From: Prochlorococcus sp. AG-402-P18
GTDB taxonomy: Bacteria; Cyanobacteriota; Cyanobacteriia; PCC-6307; Cyanobiaceae
Direction of reading: 5' to 3'
DNA: 64,000 nucleotides
Assembly: GCA_003216275.1 (NCBI GenBank)
Contig: QCJC01000007.1
Coordinates: 1 to 64,000 of the forward strand
Of this stretch, positions 16,830 through 41,830 are shown one piece after another; the first letter of the stretch is position 1; each line of letters begins with the position of its first letter. The notes under the pieces are model-generated. The model ran no database searches, was not told the origin of the DNA, and worked only from the letters and a program-made list of their open reading frames with translations. The translations under genes and the position numbers were made by a program.

Positions 16830-18092
16830 GTGACAAATGATCTTCTGAACTTGAGTCTTTTGGCAGCTTCTATATGGTCTCCAATTTCAGGTGGAATTAC
16901 TAGTCCTGATGGTTTTTTGGCGGCTGGTATTTCAGCAGGACTGAAGCCTTCTGGGAAGAAAGATCTTGCTTTGCTGTATGTACCTGAGGGTTCTTGTTGC
17001 AGTGGGACATTTACTCAATCAGTGGCACGTGCCTCTTGTGTGGATCTATGTATTGATCGCCTTAACGCTTCCCAGGGAAAGATTCGTGCTGTCCTAATTA
17101 ACTCTGGTCAGGCCAATGCTTGTACAGGTAGTAGAGGGAAAATTGACAGTGAAGTTATCACTCATGAGCTTGCTAAACGGTTGGGATTATCTAATGAAGA
17201 AGTTTTGATTTGCTCTACAGGTGTGATCGGTGAGGCAATACCTGTAGAAAAAGTGAAAAGTCATTTAGACCATCTAATAAACAGCTTGGATAAAAATGCC
17301 TATCTAGATGCAGCAAATGCAATTCTTACGACAGATCTTCAGGTAAAGCAAATTGCATATCAAGCAGTTTTAGGAGGAAGACGGGTATGTATAGGAGGCA
17401 TGGCTAAAGGTTCAGGAATGATTCATCCATCAATGGCAACAATGTTGAGTTATATCACTTGTAATGTAGGCATTGATCAAACATTATGGGACTCGCTGAT
17501 AAAGAGAGTTGCGGATGCATCTTTTAATGCTATTACAGTTGATGGTGATACGAGTACAAATGACACTTTTTTAGCTTTTGCTTCTGGACATGAATTAGAT
17601 GCTAAATATTTACCTGCTCTTGAGGAGGGATTGCATCTCGCGGCTCAATATTTAGCCAAAGCTATTGCAAGAGACGGTGAAGGTGCTAATTGTTTGATCG
17701 AGATTAAAGTTGAAGGTGCTAAAGATGAGATGGATGCTCAAGCAGTAGCTCGAACTGTAGCTTCATCTGCCTTGGTCAAAACTGCTGTTCATGGTTCGGA
17801 TCCTAATTGGGGAAGAATTATAGCTGCGCTTGGTCGGGCAGGCGCTGTGTTTAATCTAAATGATGTTCAATTATGGATTGGTCCATTTCAATTATTCGCA
17901 GATGGAATGCCTGTTGATTTTGATAGACAAAAAGTTATAAATTATATGAAACAGAAACTCCAAGGAAAATATTTGATAGATGATGCAGTAGTCATTAGAT
18001 TAAAGCTTGGCGATGATGAAGGCACATCTACTGCGTGGGGTTGTGACTTATCGGATGAATATGTACGTATCAATGCCGACTATACCACTTAA
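16830..18092 (+). CDS. argJ: Bifunctional ornithine acetyltransferase / N-acetylglutamate synthase
   Basis: ArgJ recycles the acetyl group in arginine synthesis. It is made as a precursor that cuts itself before a threonine, here T204 in KGSGMIHPSMATML. The GTG start gives 420 residues, near the normal length, and the C-terminal VHGSDPNWGRI block is intact. The 3' end is unusual: its last codons recur at about 21,550 with synonymous differences, on the far side of the helicase gene. This suggests the current 3' end was either supplied or separated by an insertion. Confidence 0.94.
   Translation: MTNDLLNLSLLAASIWSPISGGITSPDGFLAAGISAGLKPSGKKDLALLYVPEGSCCSGTFTQSVARASCVDLCIDRLNASQGKIRAVLINSGQANACTGSRGKIDSEVITHELAKRLGLSNEEVLICSTGVIGEAIPVEKVKSHLDHLINSLDKNAYLDAANAILTTDLQVKQIAYQAVLGGRRVCIGGMAKGSGMIHPSMATMLSYITCNVGIDQTLWDSLIKRVADASFNAITVDGDTSTNDTFLAFASGHELDAKYLPALEEGLHLAAQYLAKAIARDGEGANCLIEIKVEGAKDEMDAQAVARTVASSALVKTAVHGSDPNWGRIIAALGRAGAVFNLNDVQLWIGPFQLFADGMPVDFDRQKVINYMKQKLQGKYLIDDAVVIRLKLGDDEGTSTAWGCDLSDEYVRINADYTT
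18060..18079 (+). repeat. Direct repeat, left copy (argJ 3' end)
   Basis: This 20-base stretch inside the last codons of argJ is identical to 21553-21572. It encodes most of the C-terminal YVRINAD. The following ten or so bases differ from the right copy only at synonymous positions, so both copies read ...ADYTT-stop. Together they bracket the helicase gene like attachment-site halves. Confidence 0.85.
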
Positions 18093-18139
18093 TCCGAGAT
18101 CTCCTCTGCTGGAACGGATTTAAGGAATTGATTTTTTAA

Positions 18140-18158
18140 ATATACCACCTTTATACCG
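18140..18158 (+). repeat. Inner flanking repeat, left copy (TATACC motif)
   Basis: These 19 bases match 21428-21446 at 18 positions and overlap the stop codon of the helicase gene (18151-18153). The core TATACCAC also occurs at 18081 in the argJ end and at 21490 and 21501 on the right side. The repeated unit therefore clusters only at the two edges of the helicase gene. Confidence 0.7.
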
Positions 18159-21100
18159 ATTTGTATCTCTCGTCCGTAATTTCCCAAACCCAACCTTCAA
18201 GACTTTCTAATAAATCAATTCGTTCTTTAGGTAGATCATTGTTTGAATATTTTTTTTTCTGTCTTTTAATCCAACTATTAAGCGGATGCTTCCATGGTGG
18301 TCTGAAATGATCATTTTCTATATGAAATAGTTTTAATTCATTGAATGTTTGATTCCATTCTTCTTTATTTGGATCCCATACAAAATTTAAACTCTTTAAC
18401 ATTTCAATTCGTTCTTGGGATAATTTACCCTCTCTAAACTCTCGTCTTTGACTATCAACCCAATTCCTCAGAACATGATCTGTTGGAGGCTTTGAGTGAT
18501 CATGTTCAAAGTTAAAAACTTTTAATTGCCTATATTTTTCATTCCAGAATGCTTCTGCGGGATCCCATATAAAACCCACACTTTTTAAAAGATTTATTTG
18601 CTCCTCTGATATCTTTTTATTCTTAAAGTATTGCCTTTGCCTCTTGCTCCACTCACCAAGAGATGGATGATTTATTGGAACTAATGCATGACCATTCTCT
18701 TTATAAAAAATTTCAAGTTCATTAAATTTATTATTCCAACTTTGTTGACTAGATCTTTGTTGACTAGATATCTTAAACTTTTCAGAAAAAAAGTTAATAC
18801 TTTTAAGTAAATCGCTGCGTTTTTTAGAGAGATTTCCTTTTCTATATAATTGAATTTGATTATTACTCCACATATAAAGATCAGGATTCTTTCCTAGAAG
18901 ATTTAAATGACCATGAGATGATTGGAACTCTTTTAATTGCTCAAACTGCTTTGTCCATGATTCTTCTGAAGGATCCCATATAAAACCAATCGATTCTAAA
19001 AGACTAATTCTTTCTTGAGAGATCTTTTCTTTTTTATATATCTCTCTTTGCCGATCACACCAATTACCTAGTATTGGGTAGTCGAATTTGGGAGTTGTAT
19101 GCCCGTACTCTAATTTAAATTTTTTTAATTCCTCAAATTTATTATTCCATTCTTTGTTTCGTGGATTCCAAATAAAATCAATCGATTCTAAAAGACTAAT
19201 TCTTTCTTGAGATAAATTATTTCTTCTATATTGCACTCTTTGAACTTGTGTCCAAGTACGAATAAAAGGGTATTCCTTTTCAGGATTGACATGACCATGT
19301 TCTACACCGAATGCTTTTAATTTCCCAAAGTTTTCCAACCAATCATCAGAAGTATTTCGAATGATGGTTGTTTGAATCTTGTCTATATAACTTTTAGAAA
19401 CTTTTTTAGGGAGATCAATAATTACTTTTTTTATACCTGTTTGTTTACCACTACCTTTTCCTTTCTTACCCAAACTCACACGAAGAGTATCAATCTCATC
19501 CATTAACGAATCATCTTGTGATTTTAGAGCAAGGATTATCTTCCATACGCTTGAGAATTTACTTGCAAGAATTTGGTCATTAACCTTTTCAGCAATATCT
19601 GATAGATATACAGGAATAACTATTGTTCCAAAAATTTTATTTTCACTTTTTCGTATCGCTCTACCAACTGCCTGAATAATATCCACCTGACTTTGTCTTG
19701 GATCTATAAATGCAATTCCATCAAGAGTGGGTACATCAACTCCTTCAGATAGGCACCTTGCATTTGTGAGTATTCCTATTTCACCTTCGCGGAGATTTTT
19801 TAGTGTATGGATCCTTTTATTTCTCTCTGAACTGTTCATGTCACCTGATACATGAGCAGTAGAAATCTCTTTTACAGATTGCCCCGAATTGTTCATCCAA
19901 TCATTCACTTTTAAATGGTCTTCAGCAAAGTTTTTCGCACCTTTAATGCGTCCATGAAAAGTAATCACTCTTTGTAGGTCATAGTGATTAATCGCCTTTG
20001 CAAGAGCAATATGAGAAGCAAGAGTTTCAGCATCTGTCTTTAATCCATTAGTACTGATCTCTAAAAGATCTCTATTTTCAATCTGACTTCTAATCATTTC
20101 ATCATCGACTCCAACAACTACGACCTGATAATCAGAAAGAAGATTCTTTTCAATTGCCTCTGAAAATTTGATTTGATATAGAACTTCTCCAAACACTGAA
20201 TGGTTATCCATTGAGGCCACTTCAATATCTTTTTCAGAGGCACTTTTCTTTAATTGATTTGAGAGAACTCTTGGAGTAGCAGTGAGAAAAAGTCTTTTAT
20301 TTGAGTGGATTTTCTTGGAATCCAGAACACATCCAAAAGCATCAGAAACTTTTCCTGCACATCTATGTGCTTCATCTGCAAAGACAAGGTCAAAATCTGA
20401 AAGATTTGAATTCTTCTGTGCATCAGCAACTAATGGAGATGATTGATAAGTAGAGAAGACTATTTTTGAACCTGTACCTTTTAGGAATGATTTGATCTCT
20501 GCTGGATCACTCGTAACAGGGACTCCCATTTCAGAGAGATTGGTGATCCAGTCATCTTCTGTTTTGTCTTGCTTGGCAACTGACTTGTCTGAGCAAACAC
20601 AAATCCATTCAAATGGTTCTGAAGCAGCAGCAGACCATTCTCTGAGAGTTTGAGAAAGAAGACTTAATGATGGGAGAAGAACCAATGTCCTTTGTGCTTT
20701 TAATCGCTCCTTGATCCATAACGAAGTAAGAGTTTTTCCTGTTCCACATGCCATAAGGAGTTGCCCCCTCTCAGCACTTTTCAGACCCTCTTCGACAGCA
20801 TCAATTGCTTCAAGTTGATGAGGTCTTGGAGTTCTTGGATCTTTCTTTTTGCCAGTAGAAAGGTTATCTGGAGACTGTGGATATTCAATTTCAGATTGGC
20901 GAAATTGATTGAGGAGGAAACACACAACTTGCTTCTCTTGCCTCTCAATTACTTGAACAGCATTGCGTCCAATTCCATCAGTGCTTGCAATTAATAAGCG
21001 TCCGTAAAACCTGGGATCATTGGACTCACTTAAAAAACTATCGATTTGTTTTTTTGGAATTTCAAGATCAGGAGAAATGCACTTGGATTGAACTGCCCAT

Positions 21101-21324
21101 GTCTTTCCATTCTTCTCTTTAAAAACAAGATCTATCCCACAGTCACGACCCCATCGATCTGGATACTCATCCCATAACCAAATCTCTTCAACTTTGGATT
21201 GCCACTCGGGAGAATTTTTTAAAAACCATTTGACAAATTTTTCAAACTGCTTTCCTCTGACATCCGAATTCGGATCAAGTGATATATAGAACTCGTCAAA
21301 GGTCGCCACTTTCCTTGATGGCAA
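18151..21324 (-). CDS. Mrr-like nuclease / SF2 helicase with six helicase-associated repeats
   Basis: This is a 1,057-residue fusion. Residues 20-140 look like an Mrr-type endonuclease, with D65 and Q79-x-K81 as the PD-(D/E)xK core (GIDLVF...AVQSK). The superfamily 2 helicase follows with Walker A MACGTGKT (191-198), DEAH (317-320), LTATP (about 347-351) and QAVGRAIR near 575. Six helicase-associated (HA, PF03457-type) repeats fill about 655-1045, each with a GH core, a W and an ISQERI-LLES-GF-W ending. The start is TTG. The function is unknown; the layout resembles phage-defence nucleases. It sits alone between repeats derived from argJ, so it is probably an inserted gene. Confidence 0.8.
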   Translation of the reverse strand: MPSRKVATFDEFYISLDPNSDVRGKQFEKFVKWFLKNSPEWQSKVEEIWLWDEYPDRWGRDCGIDLVFKEKNGKTWAVQSKCISPDLEIPKKQIDSFLSESNDPRFYGRLLIASTDGIGRNAVQVIERQEKQVVCFLLNQFRQSEIEYPQSPDNLSTGKKKDPRTPRPHQLEAIDAVEEGLKSAERGQLLMACGTGKTLTSLWIKERLKAQRTLVLLPSLSLLSQTLREWSAAASEPFEWICVCSDKSVAKQDKTEDDWITNLSEMGVPVTSDPAEIKSFLKGTGSKIVFSTYQSSPLVADAQKNSNLSDFDLVFADEAHRCAGKVSDAFGCVLDSKKIHSNKRLFLTATPRVLSNQLKKSASEKDIEVASMDNHSVFGEVLYQIKFSEAIEKNLLSDYQVVVVGVDDEMIRSQIENRDLLEISTNGLKTDAETLASHIALAKAINHYDLQRVITFHGRIKGAKNFAEDHLKVNDWMNNSGQSVKEISTAHVSGDMNSSERNKRIHTLKNLREGEIGILTNARCLSEGVDVPTLDGIAFIDPRQSQVDIIQAVGRAIRKSENKIFGTIVIPVYLSDIAEKVNDQILASKFSSVWKIILALKSQDDSLMDEIDTLRVSLGKKGKGSGKQTGIKKVIIDLPKKVSKSYIDKIQTTIIRNTSDDWLENFGKLKAFGVEHGHVNPEKEYPFIRTWTQVQRVQYRRNNLSQERISLLESIDFIWNPRNKEWNNKFEELKKFKLEYGHTTPKFDYPILGNWCDRQREIYKKEKISQERISLLESIGFIWDPSEESWTKQFEQLKEFQSSHGHLNLLGKNPDLYMWSNNQIQLYRKGNLSKKRSDLLKSINFFSEKFKISSQQRSSQQSWNNKFNELEIFYKENGHALVPINHPSLGEWSKRQRQYFKNKKISEEQINLLKSVGFIWDPAEAFWNEKYRQLKVFNFEHDHSKPPTDHVLRNWVDSQRREFREGKLSQERIEMLKSLNFVWDPNKEEWNQTFNELKLFHIENDHFRPPWKHPLNSWIKRQKKKYSNNDLPKERIDLLESLEGWVWEITDERYKSV

Positions 21325-21427
21325 TTTGATCGTCTTTCTATTATGCCTGTTTAACCAATTTGTCTATTTTAATGACACTTATATGAGAGAAAGATTTTCG
21401 CTTTATTATTATCTACTGATGATTGAT

Positions 21428-21446
21428 ATATACCATCTTTATACCG
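21428..21446 (+). repeat. Inner flanking repeat, right copy (TATACC motif)
   Basis: This copy matches 18140-18158 at 18 of 19 positions. It lies about 100 bases upstream of the helicase start codon, so it could also be an operator for that gene. Confidence 0.7.
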
Positions 21447-21548
21447 GTGAACCACTTATAACTGGGTTTTCAGCGGGAAAATGGCAAATATACCACTAAA
21501 ATACCACTAACGTAATCCTTGTAATCAATTGCTATCACTGATTTTTAA

Positions 21549-21584
21549 TGCTTATGTACGTATCAATGCCGATTACACTACATA
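21549..21584 (+). pseudogene. Detached 3' end of argJ
   Basis: In the plus frame this reads AYVRINADYTT and stop (TAG), the same C-terminus as the intact argJ 3.5 kb upstream. The first 20 bases are identical. The last five codons differ only at third positions and in the stop triplet. It has no start codon and cannot be expressed. The simplest reading is an attachment-site half left by insertion of the helicase gene. Confidence 0.8.
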
Positions 21585-21652
21585 GAAAGTGTGACCAAAT
21601 AAAACTCAGTTATGTCAATGGATTTTGACGGTGTTATATACGCACCTTTGAT

Positions 21653-21810
21653 GAGTGTGATGTAAGTGTGACCTTATTACGAACCTTTTTTTGATTTTTC
21701 TATAGGTGAACTATGGCTCATGTCTAGATTTTTAAAATATATTTATCTATCATGATTACTTTTCTTGATTATTAACTAAACCCAGTCATTTCAGTAAAGG
21801 GAGTTTTATT
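21653..21810 (-). pseudogene. Decayed DUF4214 gene tail (copy A)
   Basis: This is a direct repeat of 22356-22515, the 3' end and downstream flank of the 754-residue gene. One uninterrupted match exceeds 40 bases. On the minus strand it still reads TPFTEMTGFS and stop, matching the C-terminus of the intact protein (LFTEMTGFG). The rest of the coding sequence is absent. Confidence 0.75.
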
Positions 21811-22042
21811 TCTAATGCTCAAAAAATACCGTGAGATTTGCTCATTAATGAAGAGTTATTTTTTAAAATTACAAATGACTGCAGCAATTGGCACAAAGTA
21901 AAGTAGCATAAGTTTTTAGGGTATTTGATTTCTTTATTCTGTTACGGTTTAAGGCTTTATTTTATACATCCATATCACAATTGATCATGTTCCATGTTAA
22001 TTGAAGTTCTTTTTTATAAGTTGGTAAAAATTATGTAAAGAA

Positions 22043-22324
22043 ATGGAAGTTGATCTTACAGAATTGTTGAATTCATACGAAGTTGTTCCTGTATCCCTGA
22101 GTGATCCTTTTAAATCCTTAGTTGTGGATCCTTCCACGATGGTAGTCTTGAGAGTTATACCCATTATTGGATTTATAGCTTTATTAATGGCAGCGGTATG
22201 GATACAGAGTAAAAAAATCCCAGCAAAAGCTTTTATTAAGTTAAATGAAACTAATAAGTTAGAAGCAGATAATGACGTGGATTTGAGAATGCTAGGAATT
22301 GAAGAAAGTAGAGATTCTGAATAA
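22043..22324 (+). CDS. Small membrane-anchored hypothetical protein
   Basis: This 93-residue protein has one hydrophobic segment at about residues 35-54 (VLRVIPIIGFIALLMAAVWI) and an acidic, charged C-terminal tail. I do not recognise the family. It is the only gene between two copies of the DUF4214 3' tail (21653-21810 and 22356-22515), which makes it look like cassette cargo. The topology is probably N-terminus out and tail in, following the positive residues after the helix. Confidence 0.55.
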   Translation: MEVDLTELLNSYEVVPVSLSDPFKSLVVDPSTMVVLRVIPIIGFIALLMAAVWIQSKKIPAKAFIKLNETNKLEADNDVDLRMLGIEESRDSE

Positions 22325-22355: not shown

Positions 22356-22515
22356 GAGTGTGATGTAAGTGTGACCTTATTACGAACCTTATTTTTATAT
22401 TTCTAGAGCTGAACCGTGGCTCATGTCTAGATTTTTAAAATATATTTATCTATCATGATTATTTTTCTTGATTATTAACCAAACCCAGTCATTTCAGTAA
22501 AGAGAGTTATATTTT
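22356..22515 (-). repeat. DUF4214 3' tail and flank (copy B)
   Basis: This covers the last codons of the 754-residue gene and about 120 bases downstream, repeated as copy A at 21653-21810. The near-identity in the untranslated part shows recent duplication or homologous exchange, not shared protein constraint. Confidence 0.8.
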
Positions 22516-24739
22516 CTGCTGATTCAGCAAATCCTAAAAGTAATTCATATCTTGTCTCTAATCCGCTATTTAAGTTGCCTAACCAATAGTTATAACCCTC
22601 TTGGTCATAATCTCTACCTAAGACATTCGTATAGAGAGTCTCAACGTATTTAGCGTTCGAGACATTAGCTCCATAACGCTCTTTAAATTCGTCAGACACT
22701 AGAAATGATTGAGCAACTTCTCGTTCATCATTTTCTCCAGAAGTGTATTTACCGATCCAATATTTCAATCCATCTGCATCAGGAAGACGCTTAAATGCAG
22801 CATTGTATAAGCGGAACATTTTTGCATCATCTGTATTTAATCCTGTGACTTGATCAAACGTTCCTTTGATATCAACAATTGCACTGGTGTCTCGAAAAGA
22901 ACTCGTTGTTGCTTCTCCTGTAAAGGTCAATAAAGGAAGACCTGTAATGTCGTCATATCCAGAGTTGGTTTTGATCTCATATTTTCCATTACCTTTGTTG
23001 TAGAACTTGTAATCACTAAACATACCACTATAGGTTTTAATTATGTCTACTTTTGATTCTTCAACTGTTTGATCTGAGAATTGAATGTATTCAATGCTTG
23101 AAAGAGTATCTGTTCCGTCATTTGTTCCTGTCCTTTCATCTTCTATTTCCAGTGTGGTACTGATACGTGTAAATGAGTAATCTGAAAATTTTCCAGAATA
23201 AATCACTTTATCTATACCTGACCCTCCATTGATTGAATCATTACTGGGACCACTGATAAATGAATCATCTTTATCTGTTCCATCAAAATCAGATGAAGGG
23301 GTTTTAGACGTATCGCCAATAGAAACAGAAGAGGTACTTCCTACTTGAGTAGACCGAGATGAATCAGAAAAGAGTTTGATATTGAGAGTTTCACTGCCTT
23401 CTGTGGTGAGATCATTGGCAAGTGTATGGGAGAAGGAAAGAGATCCATCACTGCCCACAGTTCCTGACCCAGTCAAAGCACCAGAAGAAAAGTCATCATT
23501 AGTGATTACGTTTCCACTAAGAGACCAGTAGAGGTTGGTCCCAGCATCAACGTTTGTTGTAGAGATCGAAGTTGTTAGTGTGCTGCCCTCATTAATCGAG
23601 GTGCTAGAAGGATTAATGGTATAGGCAGGAGAAAGAGTTTTAGACGTATCGCCAATAGAAACAGAAGAGGTACTTCCTACTTGAGTAGACCGAGATGAAT
23701 CAGAAAAGAGTTTGATATTGAGAGTTTCACTGCCTTCTGTGGTGAGATCATTGGCAAGTGTATGGGAGAAGGAAAGAGATCCATCACTGCCCACAGTTCC
23801 TGACCCAGTCAAAGCACCAGAAGAAAAGTCATCACTGTTTATTCCTGTTCCACTGACTGACCAATAGAGAGTGGTCCCAGCATCAACGTTTGTTGTAGAG
23901 ATCGAAGTTGTTAGTGTGCTGCCCTCATTGATGGAGGAGCTAGAAGTAGAAAGGTTATATTCTTTGTCATCATCTTGAATCGTTACAGTTGCTGTGCCAT
24001 CAGTGATCTGTGCAGGGACTGTATCTGAGTTAGAAGCAGTAAGTGATAATGAGAATGTCTCACTCGATTCGGCATTGGTATTCTCTATAGATGAAATCGC
24101 AACTGTCTTGGATGATTCACCTGCTACAAAAGATATTGTTTGGTTAATTGCTGTGTAATCAGACCCAGCATTCGCAGTCCCATTACTTGAAACCAAACTG
24201 AAGGTCTGAGCTGTATTTGTTCCTCCAGTTCTGGAAATAGTTACGTTGCCACTATTTCCCTCTGTAATCGTAAGATCGGAAATAGAGAAATAGGAAAGTG
24301 GAATTTCTGCTATACCTTTTAAAACTCCAAAACTCCCACTTGAATTATTATGCATATCATCTAAATAGATGTATGGATTCGAATGATTAGGGTTATTAAA
24401 TATCGCTAAAAATTTATTGTGATTTGAATCATTATTATTGATTAATAGACTAGATAAGGATGTATCAAAATTCTCTCCACTTGACCATTCCCAATTGCCA
24501 CTTGAATTTTTTGTTGCGCCTGTCCAATAATGATTAATTGTCCATTCACTTGCAGGACCAATATTGTCTCCTGCATATTGATATTTTGTTTGTGAGAATT
24601 CATTCCCTAGCCATGTACTTTCACTTTCATCATTAACTGATACTAAATTTCCTCCTAGATTAATCGCATTACTTTCAGCGGTACTCCAGGTCTGTCCATT
24701 AACAGTGATATAAAAACTACTTCCTCTGATCACAGACAT
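22475..24739 (-). CDS. Secreted multidomain protein: C-type-lectin-like, Calx-beta, tandem repeats, DUF4214
   Basis: The 754-residue protein has no Sec signal and is probably a type I secretion substrate. In order I see a C-type-lectin-like domain (about 5-145, with YWTGATK and WEWSSGE but no cysteines), one Calx-beta domain (about 150-255) and two nearly identical 112-residue repeats (about 262-485). An RTX-like stretch (NDSINGGSGID) and a C-terminal DUF4214 region (about 565-754, VLGRDYDQEGYNYWLG) follow. The set suggests calcium-dependent surface adhesion. The 3' end is duplicated nearby. A 24-base inverted repeat lies 37 bases upstream. Confidence 0.8.
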   Translation of the reverse strand: MSVIRGSSFYITVNGQTWSTAESNAINLGGNLVSVNDESESTWLGNEFSQTKYQYAGDNIGPASEWTINHYWTGATKNSSGNWEWSSGENFDTSLSSLLINNNDSNHNKFLAIFNNPNHSNPYIYLDDMHNNSSGSFGVLKGIAEIPLSYFSISDLTITEGNSGNVTISRTGGTNTAQTFSLVSSNGTANAGSDYTAINQTISFVAGESSKTVAISSIENTNAESSETFSLSLTASNSDTVPAQITDGTATVTIQDDDKEYNLSTSSSSINEGSTLTTSISTTNVDAGTTLYWSVSGTGINSDDFSSGALTGSGTVGSDGSLSFSHTLANDLTTEGSETLNIKLFSDSSRSTQVGSTSSVSIGDTSKTLSPAYTINPSSTSINEGSTLTTSISTTNVDAGTNLYWSLSGNVITNDDFSSGALTGSGTVGSDGSLSFSHTLANDLTTEGSETLNIKLFSDSSRSTQVGSTSSVSIGDTSKTPSSDFDGTDKDDSFISGPSNDSINGGSGIDKVIYSGKFSDYSFTRISTTLEIEDERTGTNDGTDTLSSIEYIQFSDQTVEESKVDIIKTYSGMFSDYKFYNKGNGKYEIKTNSGYDDITGLPLLTFTGEATTSSFRDTSAIVDIKGTFDQVTGLNTDDAKMFRLYNAAFKRLPDADGLKYWIGKYTSGENDEREVAQSFLVSDEFKERYGANVSNAKYVETLYTNVLGRDYDQEGYNYWLGNLNSGLETRYELLLGFAESAENITLFTEMTGFG
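23301..23588 (-). repeat. Internal tandem repeat, unit 2
   Basis: This is a near-identical copy of 23637-23924 at an offset of 336 bases (112 codons) within the lectin/Calx-beta gene. The two units differ mainly in a short stretch after the shared DDFSSGAL-coding part. This is recent in-frame duplication. Confidence 0.85.
23637..23924 (-). repeat. Internal tandem repeat, unit 1
   Basis: This is the partner of 23301-23588 and lies closer to the gene's 5' end. Each unit codes for a beta-rich repeat that begins INEGSTLTTSISTTNVDAG and ends SVSIGDTSKT. Confidence 0.85.
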
Positions 24740-40036: not shown

Positions 40037-41830
40037 TTAAACTAAACCGGTCATTTCAGAAAAAAGACCTTTGTTTTCTGCAGATTCAGAGAAACCTAAA
40101 AGTACTTCATGCCTTTGCTCAATGTTATTGTTTAAGTTACCTACCCAATATAAGTATCCACTTGTATCAAGATCTCTATCTAAGACATTCAAATAGAGGT
40201 TTTTTACATATTGTTCATTAGAGATATTTTCACCATAACGCTCTTTAAATTCTGCGGAGGCAAGAAAAGAAGATGACACAGCTCTTGAGTCATCTATACC
40301 TGAGCTGAAATTACCAATCCAATATTTGAGACCAGTTGAGTCAGGGAAACGAGCGAAAGCAGCATTGTAAAGTCGGAACATTTGACCAGTGGCATCATTT
40401 AATCCTGTGACTTGATCAAATGTAGCTTTTACATCATCTATCAGATGTAGATCTTTATCATCAAATTTAAGAAGAGATGCACCAGTTAGCTCATCGATGC
40501 CTTCAGTTGTTCCTACTCCATATTTATCATTACCAAGATCATAAAATTTATAACTATCACTTTTACCAGAATAAACTTTTTCTGATTGGAATCCTAATTC
40601 ATTAATCGCTTTAATTTTTTTGCTGGTGATCAAGGCATTTTTATCAGCAAAAGTCAGTTTCTCAATATTTGATAAAGTATCTATACCATCTTTACTAGAA
40701 GCGCGAACATCGCTCACGCTAACAATTTTATTAAAGATTACAAATGTATAGTCGGAGAAATTACCTGAATATTTAGCGATGTCGTAATCACTTCCACCAT
40801 CAATCGTATCGTTCCCACCATTTCCTTGGATAACATCATTTCCTATTCCTCCTTGGAGCGTATCTATACCATCTGATCCGTTAAGATTTTCTCCTTGAAT
40901 ATCTTTAACACTGACGATTACATATTGATTGGATTCATTCCCATCTGCATCAATCGCAGTAACAATTACATTAAACGTATTTTGTATTTGTTCAGGTCTT
41001 GCATTAATGCTAATAATGTTATGAATTGCAAAATAATTAGTGTTATAAATAACACTTCCATTACCTTGAAGATTTATTAAAGGTAATTGAGTAAGATTCA
41101 GGCCAATATCTGAATAATTTACATTATATATTGTTTGATTATTTAATAATAGTGGATTCTTCATACCATCTCCTAATATATGTCCAAAAACAGTAAATCC
41201 TCCATTTTGAGAATCTAAATTTTTATTATCAGATAAATTTATAAACCATTCAGATTCAGCACTATTAGGATCGCCTGAAATTTTAGCCATTGCTATTGTA
41301 CCCATCAAATTCGAATTACCAGGTTCATTTATTATTGTCCCTTTTGACTGTATTTTTGATGGTAGACCAGTTGTTTGATTCGATGGAAGTGTTGGCCATG
41401 TATACCCACCACTCTGCATTACAAAGTCAGTAGCTAATCGATGGATTAAAGTTTTATCATATGAACCATCTGTTACATATTGAGTGAAATTATTAGCAGT
41501 GATAGGAGTTGTTTGATTACTTTCATTTTGACTATCATAAATCTCAAGAAAAAAACTTTCGTTGACATTTTGAGTAGAATAATTGGTAATAACTTGGAAA
41601 GTTGTTCCGTTTAATTTTTTAACTGTTTCAAAATCAGGAGTTTCTAGGAAGCTTAATTTTCCAGTGTCTTGATCAATGGTAAAAAGATTTTTTTCTCCGC
41701 CATTAATTGACCAAGAGACATCCTCATTTGCAGTGAAAGTGAAAATATCTTTATTATTTTCATTAATAGAAGCGTAAGTTAATGCTTCTCCCTCTGCCCC
41801 GGAGGCACCTAGAATTAATGGCGCGGTCAT
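40037..41830 (-). CDS. Secreted cyclophilin-type PPIase with RTX and DUF4214 regions
   Basis: This 597-residue fusion starts with a cadherin-like fold (about 15-95). A cyclophilin domain (about 100-240) keeps key residues (LIHRLATDFVMQSGGY, GTIAMAK, SEWFINL, GGFTVFG). A second cadherin-like piece, RTX nonapeptides (GGIGNDVIQGNGGNDTIDGG, about 330-350) and a DUF4214 C-terminus (about 450-597) follow. There is no Sec signal. RTX repeats and C-terminal location suggest type I secretion and calcium-aided folding outside the cell. The C-terminal 140 residues match those of the 754-residue protein. Confidence 0.8.
   Translation of the reverse strand: MTAPLILGASGAEGEALTYASINENNKDIFTFTANEDVSWSINGGEKNLFTIDQDTGKLSFLETPDFETVKKLNGTTFQVITNYSTQNVNESFFLEIYDSQNESNQTTPITANNFTQYVTDGSYDKTLIHRLATDFVMQSGGYTWPTLPSNQTTGLPSKIQSKGTIINEPGNSNLMGTIAMAKISGDPNSAESEWFINLSDNKNLDSQNGGFTVFGHILGDGMKNPLLLNNQTIYNVNYSDIGLNLTQLPLINLQGNGSVIYNTNYFAIHNIISINARPEQIQNTFNVIVTAIDADGNESNQYVIVSVKDIQGENLNGSDGIDTLQGGIGNDVIQGNGGNDTIDGGSDYDIAKYSGNFSDYTFVIFNKIVSVSDVRASSKDGIDTLSNIEKLTFADKNALITSKKIKAINELGFQSEKVYSGKSDSYKFYDLGNDKYGVGTTEGIDELTGASLLKFDDKDLHLIDDVKATFDQVTGLNDATGQMFRLYNAAFARFPDSTGLKYWIGNFSSGIDDSRAVSSSFLASAEFKERYGENISNEQYVKNLYLNVLDRDLDTSGYLYWVGNLNNNIEQRHEVLLGFSESAENKGLFSEMTGLV

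Follow-up and report, generated by a model that had tools for sequence, protein, structure and literature searches.

An integrase-less nuclease-helicase element at the 3' end of argJ in Prochlorococcus, probably mobilised in trans by an argJ-linked recombinase

Introduction

A central question about the streamlined cells of Prochlorococcus is how they acquire and exchange genes, and elements that target tRNA genes are the answer known so far. We analysed a stretch of 64,000 nucleotides from Prochlorococcus sp. AG-402-P18 (contig QCJC01000007.1; hereafter the window), in which the end of the protein-coding gene argJ is found a second time 3.5 kb downstream, with a nuclease-helicase gene in between. 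This locus raises the question of whether argJ has served as the attachment site of a mobile element and, if so, what moved an element that encodes no integrase.

Results

The end of argJ is present on both sides of a single gene

The features of the locus, in window coordinates, are as follows.

16830-18092, + strand: argJ (glutamate N-acetyltransferase; TIGR00120, 434 bits; NF003802, 479 bits), whose 3' end is the probable insertion site, restored by the element
18060-18092, + strand: attL-like copy, the live argJ 3' end, putatively element-derived after crossover
18138-18157, + strand: left arm repeat AAATATACCACCTTTATACC, a motif confined to argJ elements with class A ends
18151-21309, - strand: cargo gene, convergent with argJ, encoding an Mrr_cat_2 nuclease, a ResIII/Helicase_C translocase and six HA repeats (Pfam)
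21428-21445, + strand: right arm repeat, distal pair (ATATACCATCTTTATACC), from sequence reading
21486-21507, + strand: right arm repeat, proximal pair (AAATATACCACTAAAATACCAC)
21553-21585, + strand: attR-like copy, the putatively displaced original chromosomal argJ 3' end, in agreement with a helicase-less site in G015
21586-21680, + strand: chromosomal flank similar to the left end of a further argJ element, with AAAGTGTGA and the arm repeat GTGTGATGTAAGTGTGAC

Both sequence reading and a repeat finder locate TATGTACGTATCAATGCCGA twice, at 18060-18079 and 21553-21572; the latter tool gives 84% identity over 37 nt for the pair. Past these 20 identical bases the left copy continues GAC TAT ACC ACT TAA and the right copy GAT TAC ACT ACA TAG, differing only synonymously up to the stop, and both encode VRINADYTT*. 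The sequence-only reading had described this same pattern of shared bases, synonymous changes and common C-terminus and stop, and its right copy (21549-21584) was a few bases off the exact 21553-21585. Its statement that the helicase gene stands alone between the copies also holds, since the element has one open reading frame of at least 80 aa. A degenerate argJ-end pattern matched the 1.85-Mb genome twice, at the 18060 and 21553 copies only (reversed control, 0), and 3' of 21585 the best further match within the window was no better than 5 mismatches in 23; the window itself holds two argJ-end copies. Across the 3' ends of 52 open reading frames in the window, a second copy (5-7 mismatches in 33 nt) was found only for argJ and for an end at 22475, the latter inside an unrelated, ordinary DNA duplication.

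Other repeats and composite genes were observed downstream. Two copies of a 159-nt repeat (93%), at 21653-21811 and 22356-22514, enclose a 703-bp unit that contains a 93-aa open reading frame (22043-22324); in siblings G015, G021 and G004 the repeat apparently occurs once and the open reading frame is apparently absent. The Calx-beta/DUF4214 gene at 22475-24739 contains an internal 300-nt duplication (23290-23589 and 23626-23925, 94%), and a module with a relative of this gene recurs at argJ in the same three siblings. A single protein encoded at 40037-41830 combines a cyclophilin-type isomerase domain, RTX repeats and DUF4214.

A helicase-less site identifies the displaced argJ end

At the closest sibling argJ locus, that of G015, argJ terminates in GATTACACTACATAA, the helicase gene is absent, and the DNA 3' of argJ matches the window flank past the right copy (88.8% identity over 197 bp). 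This agreement of both end and flank indicates that the right copy is the displaced, old chromosomal end, and that the left copy, which today is the live argJ end, arrived with the element. The left copy is indeed element-like, as ACTATACCACTTAA followed directly by CCTGAGATCTATTC is also found at the left end of other elements, in G019, G033, G014 and G002. A further sibling, G021, has the right junction of the window next to a 0.8-kb element with class A ends (see below), which contains the first 38 helicase codons and another small gene. The G015 site is empty of the helicase module only: the flank at 21586-21680 is kept in G015, G021 and G004, and it forms a bounded module in G004, so that this 'empty' flank resembles the left end of an element that entered argJ earlier. 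Taken together with the alternative cargo described below, the G015 site and the shared left ends back the earlier proposal that an element entered the 3' end of argJ and restored the gene with its own diverged copy.

Class A elements share their ends and carry different cargo

We defined class A as argJ elements with ATACCAC arm repeats at both sides of the core. The arm motif AAATATACCAC-N4-ATACC occurs in 8 of 400 family genomes, every time at argJ-type elements (reversed control, 0), and in complete class A elements it lies to either side of the core at a distance of ~60 bp, much as arms flank the core of lambda-type attachment sites. The window element has these class-specific arms around its core (18138, 21428 and 21486) and in-frame copies of the argJ 3' end at both boundaries (18060-18092 and 21553-21585), but has no cognate argJ-clade integrase inside, which other end classes do carry.

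Class A cargo is of three types, namely the nuclease-helicase of the window, a cyanase found in 7 genomes (TIGR00673, confirmed on one copy), and, with the helicase remnant, the small protein of G021; an integrase between the two ends is absent from all class A elements seen. The cynS genes of class A elements are 97-99% identical across the 7 genomes, versus 84-94% for the argJ genes of the same genomes, which indicates that the cyanase gene spread horizontally, although homologous recombination around argJ could also contribute. In G038 and G015 a neighbouring module has taken over one class A end of the cyanase module, indicating that rearrangement by other routes occurs as well. Among the 400 family genomes the search yielded no integrase with ATACCAC arms, and a helper for class A is therefore hypothetical. 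Contig C2 of G015 was rejected as a source of one: it holds both a class A right end and a 440-aa integrase, but these belong to separate modules, and the integrase has GTGACTAA arms.

argJ is a stacking site to which one integrase clade is linked

Of 33 sibling argJ loci, 21 had at least two argJ-end copies, with a maximum of six in series, and the modules of these arrays span 0.8-10 kb; the reversed control gave 0 in 409 kb. An integrase inside and identical arm repeats at both ends mark some modules as complete (GTGACTAA in G039 and G040, GGTAACAC in G005, GTGTGATTATT in G037). argJ is a recurrent docking site where marine picocyanobacteria gather genes such as cyanase; neither this hotspot nor its integrase clade figured in the sequence-only reading. 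Sequence reading adds to the cargo at this site apparent type I restriction-modification genes (L059, L071; G005, G037) and a cytosine-methyltransferase-like gene (L056; G008). At one locus (L052, G002), opposite-strand argJ-end copies occur 5-9 kb away from argJ, indicating that array segments were inverted.

The tyrosine integrases of argJ modules form one family, with members in 49 of 400 genomes and 12 genera. An argJ-end core lay within ~1.5 kb of the integrase at all 24 of 24 strong loci, and four more distant family members were likewise near such a core; among other tyrosine recombinases of the genus only one was, itself within an argJ array. A maximum-likelihood tree (27 rows) places the argJ-linked integrases in one clade with support 97/92, on which argJ linkage takes one change versus 9.8 in shuffles. 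In most integrase lineages, 7-8-bp arm repeats specific to the lineage lie near the common core, and the more distant relatives without argJ ends have no tRNA within a few kb either. Broken integrase fragments are present in several genomes. The family search found no argJ-clade member in the genome of the window, so that the earlier remark that no integrase is present applies both between the copies and, for this clade, genome-wide. A viral origin was considered and rejected: the argJ-end pattern matched IMG/VR once, in an unrelated phage contig, which we judged to be chance, and the integrase family search gave one weak partial match.

The cargo is a nuclease-helicase that recurs at argJ and at tRNA genes

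The helicase open reading frame reaches 21324 with a TTG start, whilst the GTG at 21309 is the likely start because homologues begin MATFDEF. LlaBIII (4xqk, residues 28-664) aligns to cargo residues 21-623 with E = 2.8e-90, and the D...D...QxK, GTGKT and DEAH motifs are kept. The cargo and the type ISP enzymes LlaBIII and LlaGI hence have the nuclease-translocase half in common, over an alignment of 600 residues, whereas the methyltransferase and target-recognition domains of those enzymes are both absent from the cargo, which has six HA repeats there. This domain kinship suggests that the cargo is probably a phage-defence effector.

A second genus, that of high-light Prochlorococcus (e.g. AG-347-J19), has homologues of the cargo that likewise sit at argJ and are bounded by argJ-end copies, and the argJ helicase elements of this group (G271, G133, G383) have ATAACAC arms. 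Other homologues adjoin tRNA-Asn, tRNA-Ser or tRNA-Thr, and in MIT 9302 (L004) the helicase gene is alone in 3.4 kb between tRNA-Asn and its 3'-end copy. The tRNA-end repeats bounding helicase cargo comprise three copies for tRNA-Asn in MIT 9302 (L004) and a tRNA-Ser repeat at L147. Such bounded genes indicate that tRNA sites host comparable modules, and the occurrence of homologues at both argJ and tRNA sites that several families of site-specific elements repeatedly carry the helicase gene as cargo. A second, broken N-terminal helicase copy, 61% identical to that of the window, was observed elsewhere in the same genome (contig C11, 2649-3164; L149).

Discussion

We conclude with considerable confidence that an integrated, non-autonomous element occupies 18060-21585, that it has no integrase and takes the argJ 3' end as its attachment site, and that it was probably mobilised in trans by an argJ-clade recombinase. 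On this reading it is one module of a wider system in marine picocyanobacteria, with small gene modules stacked at argJ. In the mechanism that we propose, a tyrosine recombinase of this clade, supplied in trans by another element, would recombine the attP of the element with the argJ end, the crossover falling inside the identical 20-bp core; the argJ end of the element would then complete the gene, and the old end would be shifted 3.5 kb downstream. A plausible core is GTATCA-ATGCCGA-CTATAC, in which the 7-bp spacer ATGCCGA, at 18073-18079 and identical at 21566-21572, would lie between inverted half-sites (GTATCA; right half CTATAC/TTATAC). The circular junction of the element is predicted to consist of the right arm, TATGTACGTATCAATGCCGA, then CTATACCACTTAATCCGAGATC. 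For the window element, both mobilisation in trans and the exact crossover are probable steps, which we infer from comparing sequences.

The sequence-only reading had offered a mobilised satellite or a trapped remnant, and the evidence leans to a mobilised, integrase-less module, as cynS is 97-99% identical where argJ differs by 6-16%. The remnant, whose own integrase would have been lost by deletion in this lineage and which would now be fixed, we regard as possible but rather unlikely. It accords with an element that has no integrase, in a genome that has no member of the clade, and deletion does occur, since G021 retains class A ends at the same junction with only 38 helicase codons left; the broken integrase fragments of several genomes are also in its favour. 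However, the integrase is missing from all class A elements across three cargo types, hosts that carry the cyanase module at different array positions have nearly identical versions of it, and the core, both arms and the helicase frame of the window element are all intact.

Two further explanations place the duplication outside an argJ-specific system altogether or within a known one. Direct repeats can form by partial gene duplication or homologous recombination rather than site-specific integration, and the island has ordinary duplications too, such as the 159-nt repeat. We reject this origin as extremely improbable because boundaries, arms and integrases recur: argJ-end copies stop within the same few bases in many genomes and many genera, class-specific arms lie on both sides, and a dedicated integrase clade adjoins the same sequence. 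It is improbable, to a lesser degree, that the element is a tycheposon in the strict sense, with argJ replacing a tRNA as the site. The host group, the tyrosine recombinase and the cargo islands are the same, and cargo is held in common with tRNA-site elements, yet the site has no tRNA, the window element has neither an integrase nor another tycheposon gene, and, of the recombinases sampled, those linked to argJ group in a clade of their own.

If our preferred reading of a trans-mobilised element is extended to the system as a whole, the argJ 3' end may be a dedicated cassette platform of marine picocyanobacteria, at which a monophyletic, argJ-specific integrase clade with a diverse arm-site code moves and tandem-stacks integrase-less, single-gene modules (nuclease-helicase, cyanase and others) in trans, integron-like without being an integron; we consider the case for and against this wider model to be evenly balanced. 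A second, protein-coding docking site with an integrase clade, stacked modules and recognisable ends provides a sequence rule for finding modules, ties a nitrogen-use gene (cyanase) to a probable defence gene through a single route of delivery, and opens trans-mobilisation to direct testing. Our literature search found no paper linking argJ with an integrase or attachment site, and nothing relevant on argJ and genomic islands; the defining tycheposon paper was outside this search, and priority is uncertain.

The tycheposons of Prochlorococcus (Hackl et al. 2023, Cell) are reportedly elements that insert site-specifically by means of a tyrosine recombinase and bring cargo genes into islands. 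They and the argJ elements are thus both cargo elements of tyrosine recombinases in the same bacteria, but the tycheposon sites are tRNA genes, whereas the window site is the protein-coding argJ and its module of 3.5 kb holds one gene and no recombinase. A tmRNA 42 kb away is the sole tRNA-type gene of the window, no integrase lies between the argJ-end copies, and with its single open reading frame of at least 80 aa the element has none of the tycheposon hallmark genes (replication, satellite genes). PMC10872708 gives tycheposons at seven tRNA genes, with sizes of 4-200 kb. The same paper describes fGI-2 of Methylopumilus, an additive flexible genomic island recognisable by its repeats of the terminal 20 bp of tRNA-Lys. 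Repeated insertion at one site leaving serial gene-end copies is common to additive islands and to argJ, where such series were found at 21 of 33 sibling loci with up to six copies; the gene end in fGI-2 is that of tRNA-Lys, whereas here it is that of argJ, with arm repeats and a dedicated integrase clade identified. Integron gene cassettes are, by analogy only, also small, mostly single-gene, integrase-less modules in tandem at one site. Unlike in integrons, the argJ boundaries are direct repeats of the end of a coding gene with lambda-like arms, and integrases are found inside some modules. In how it works the argJ system resembles tycheposons and additive islands, with a protein-coding gene as its site.
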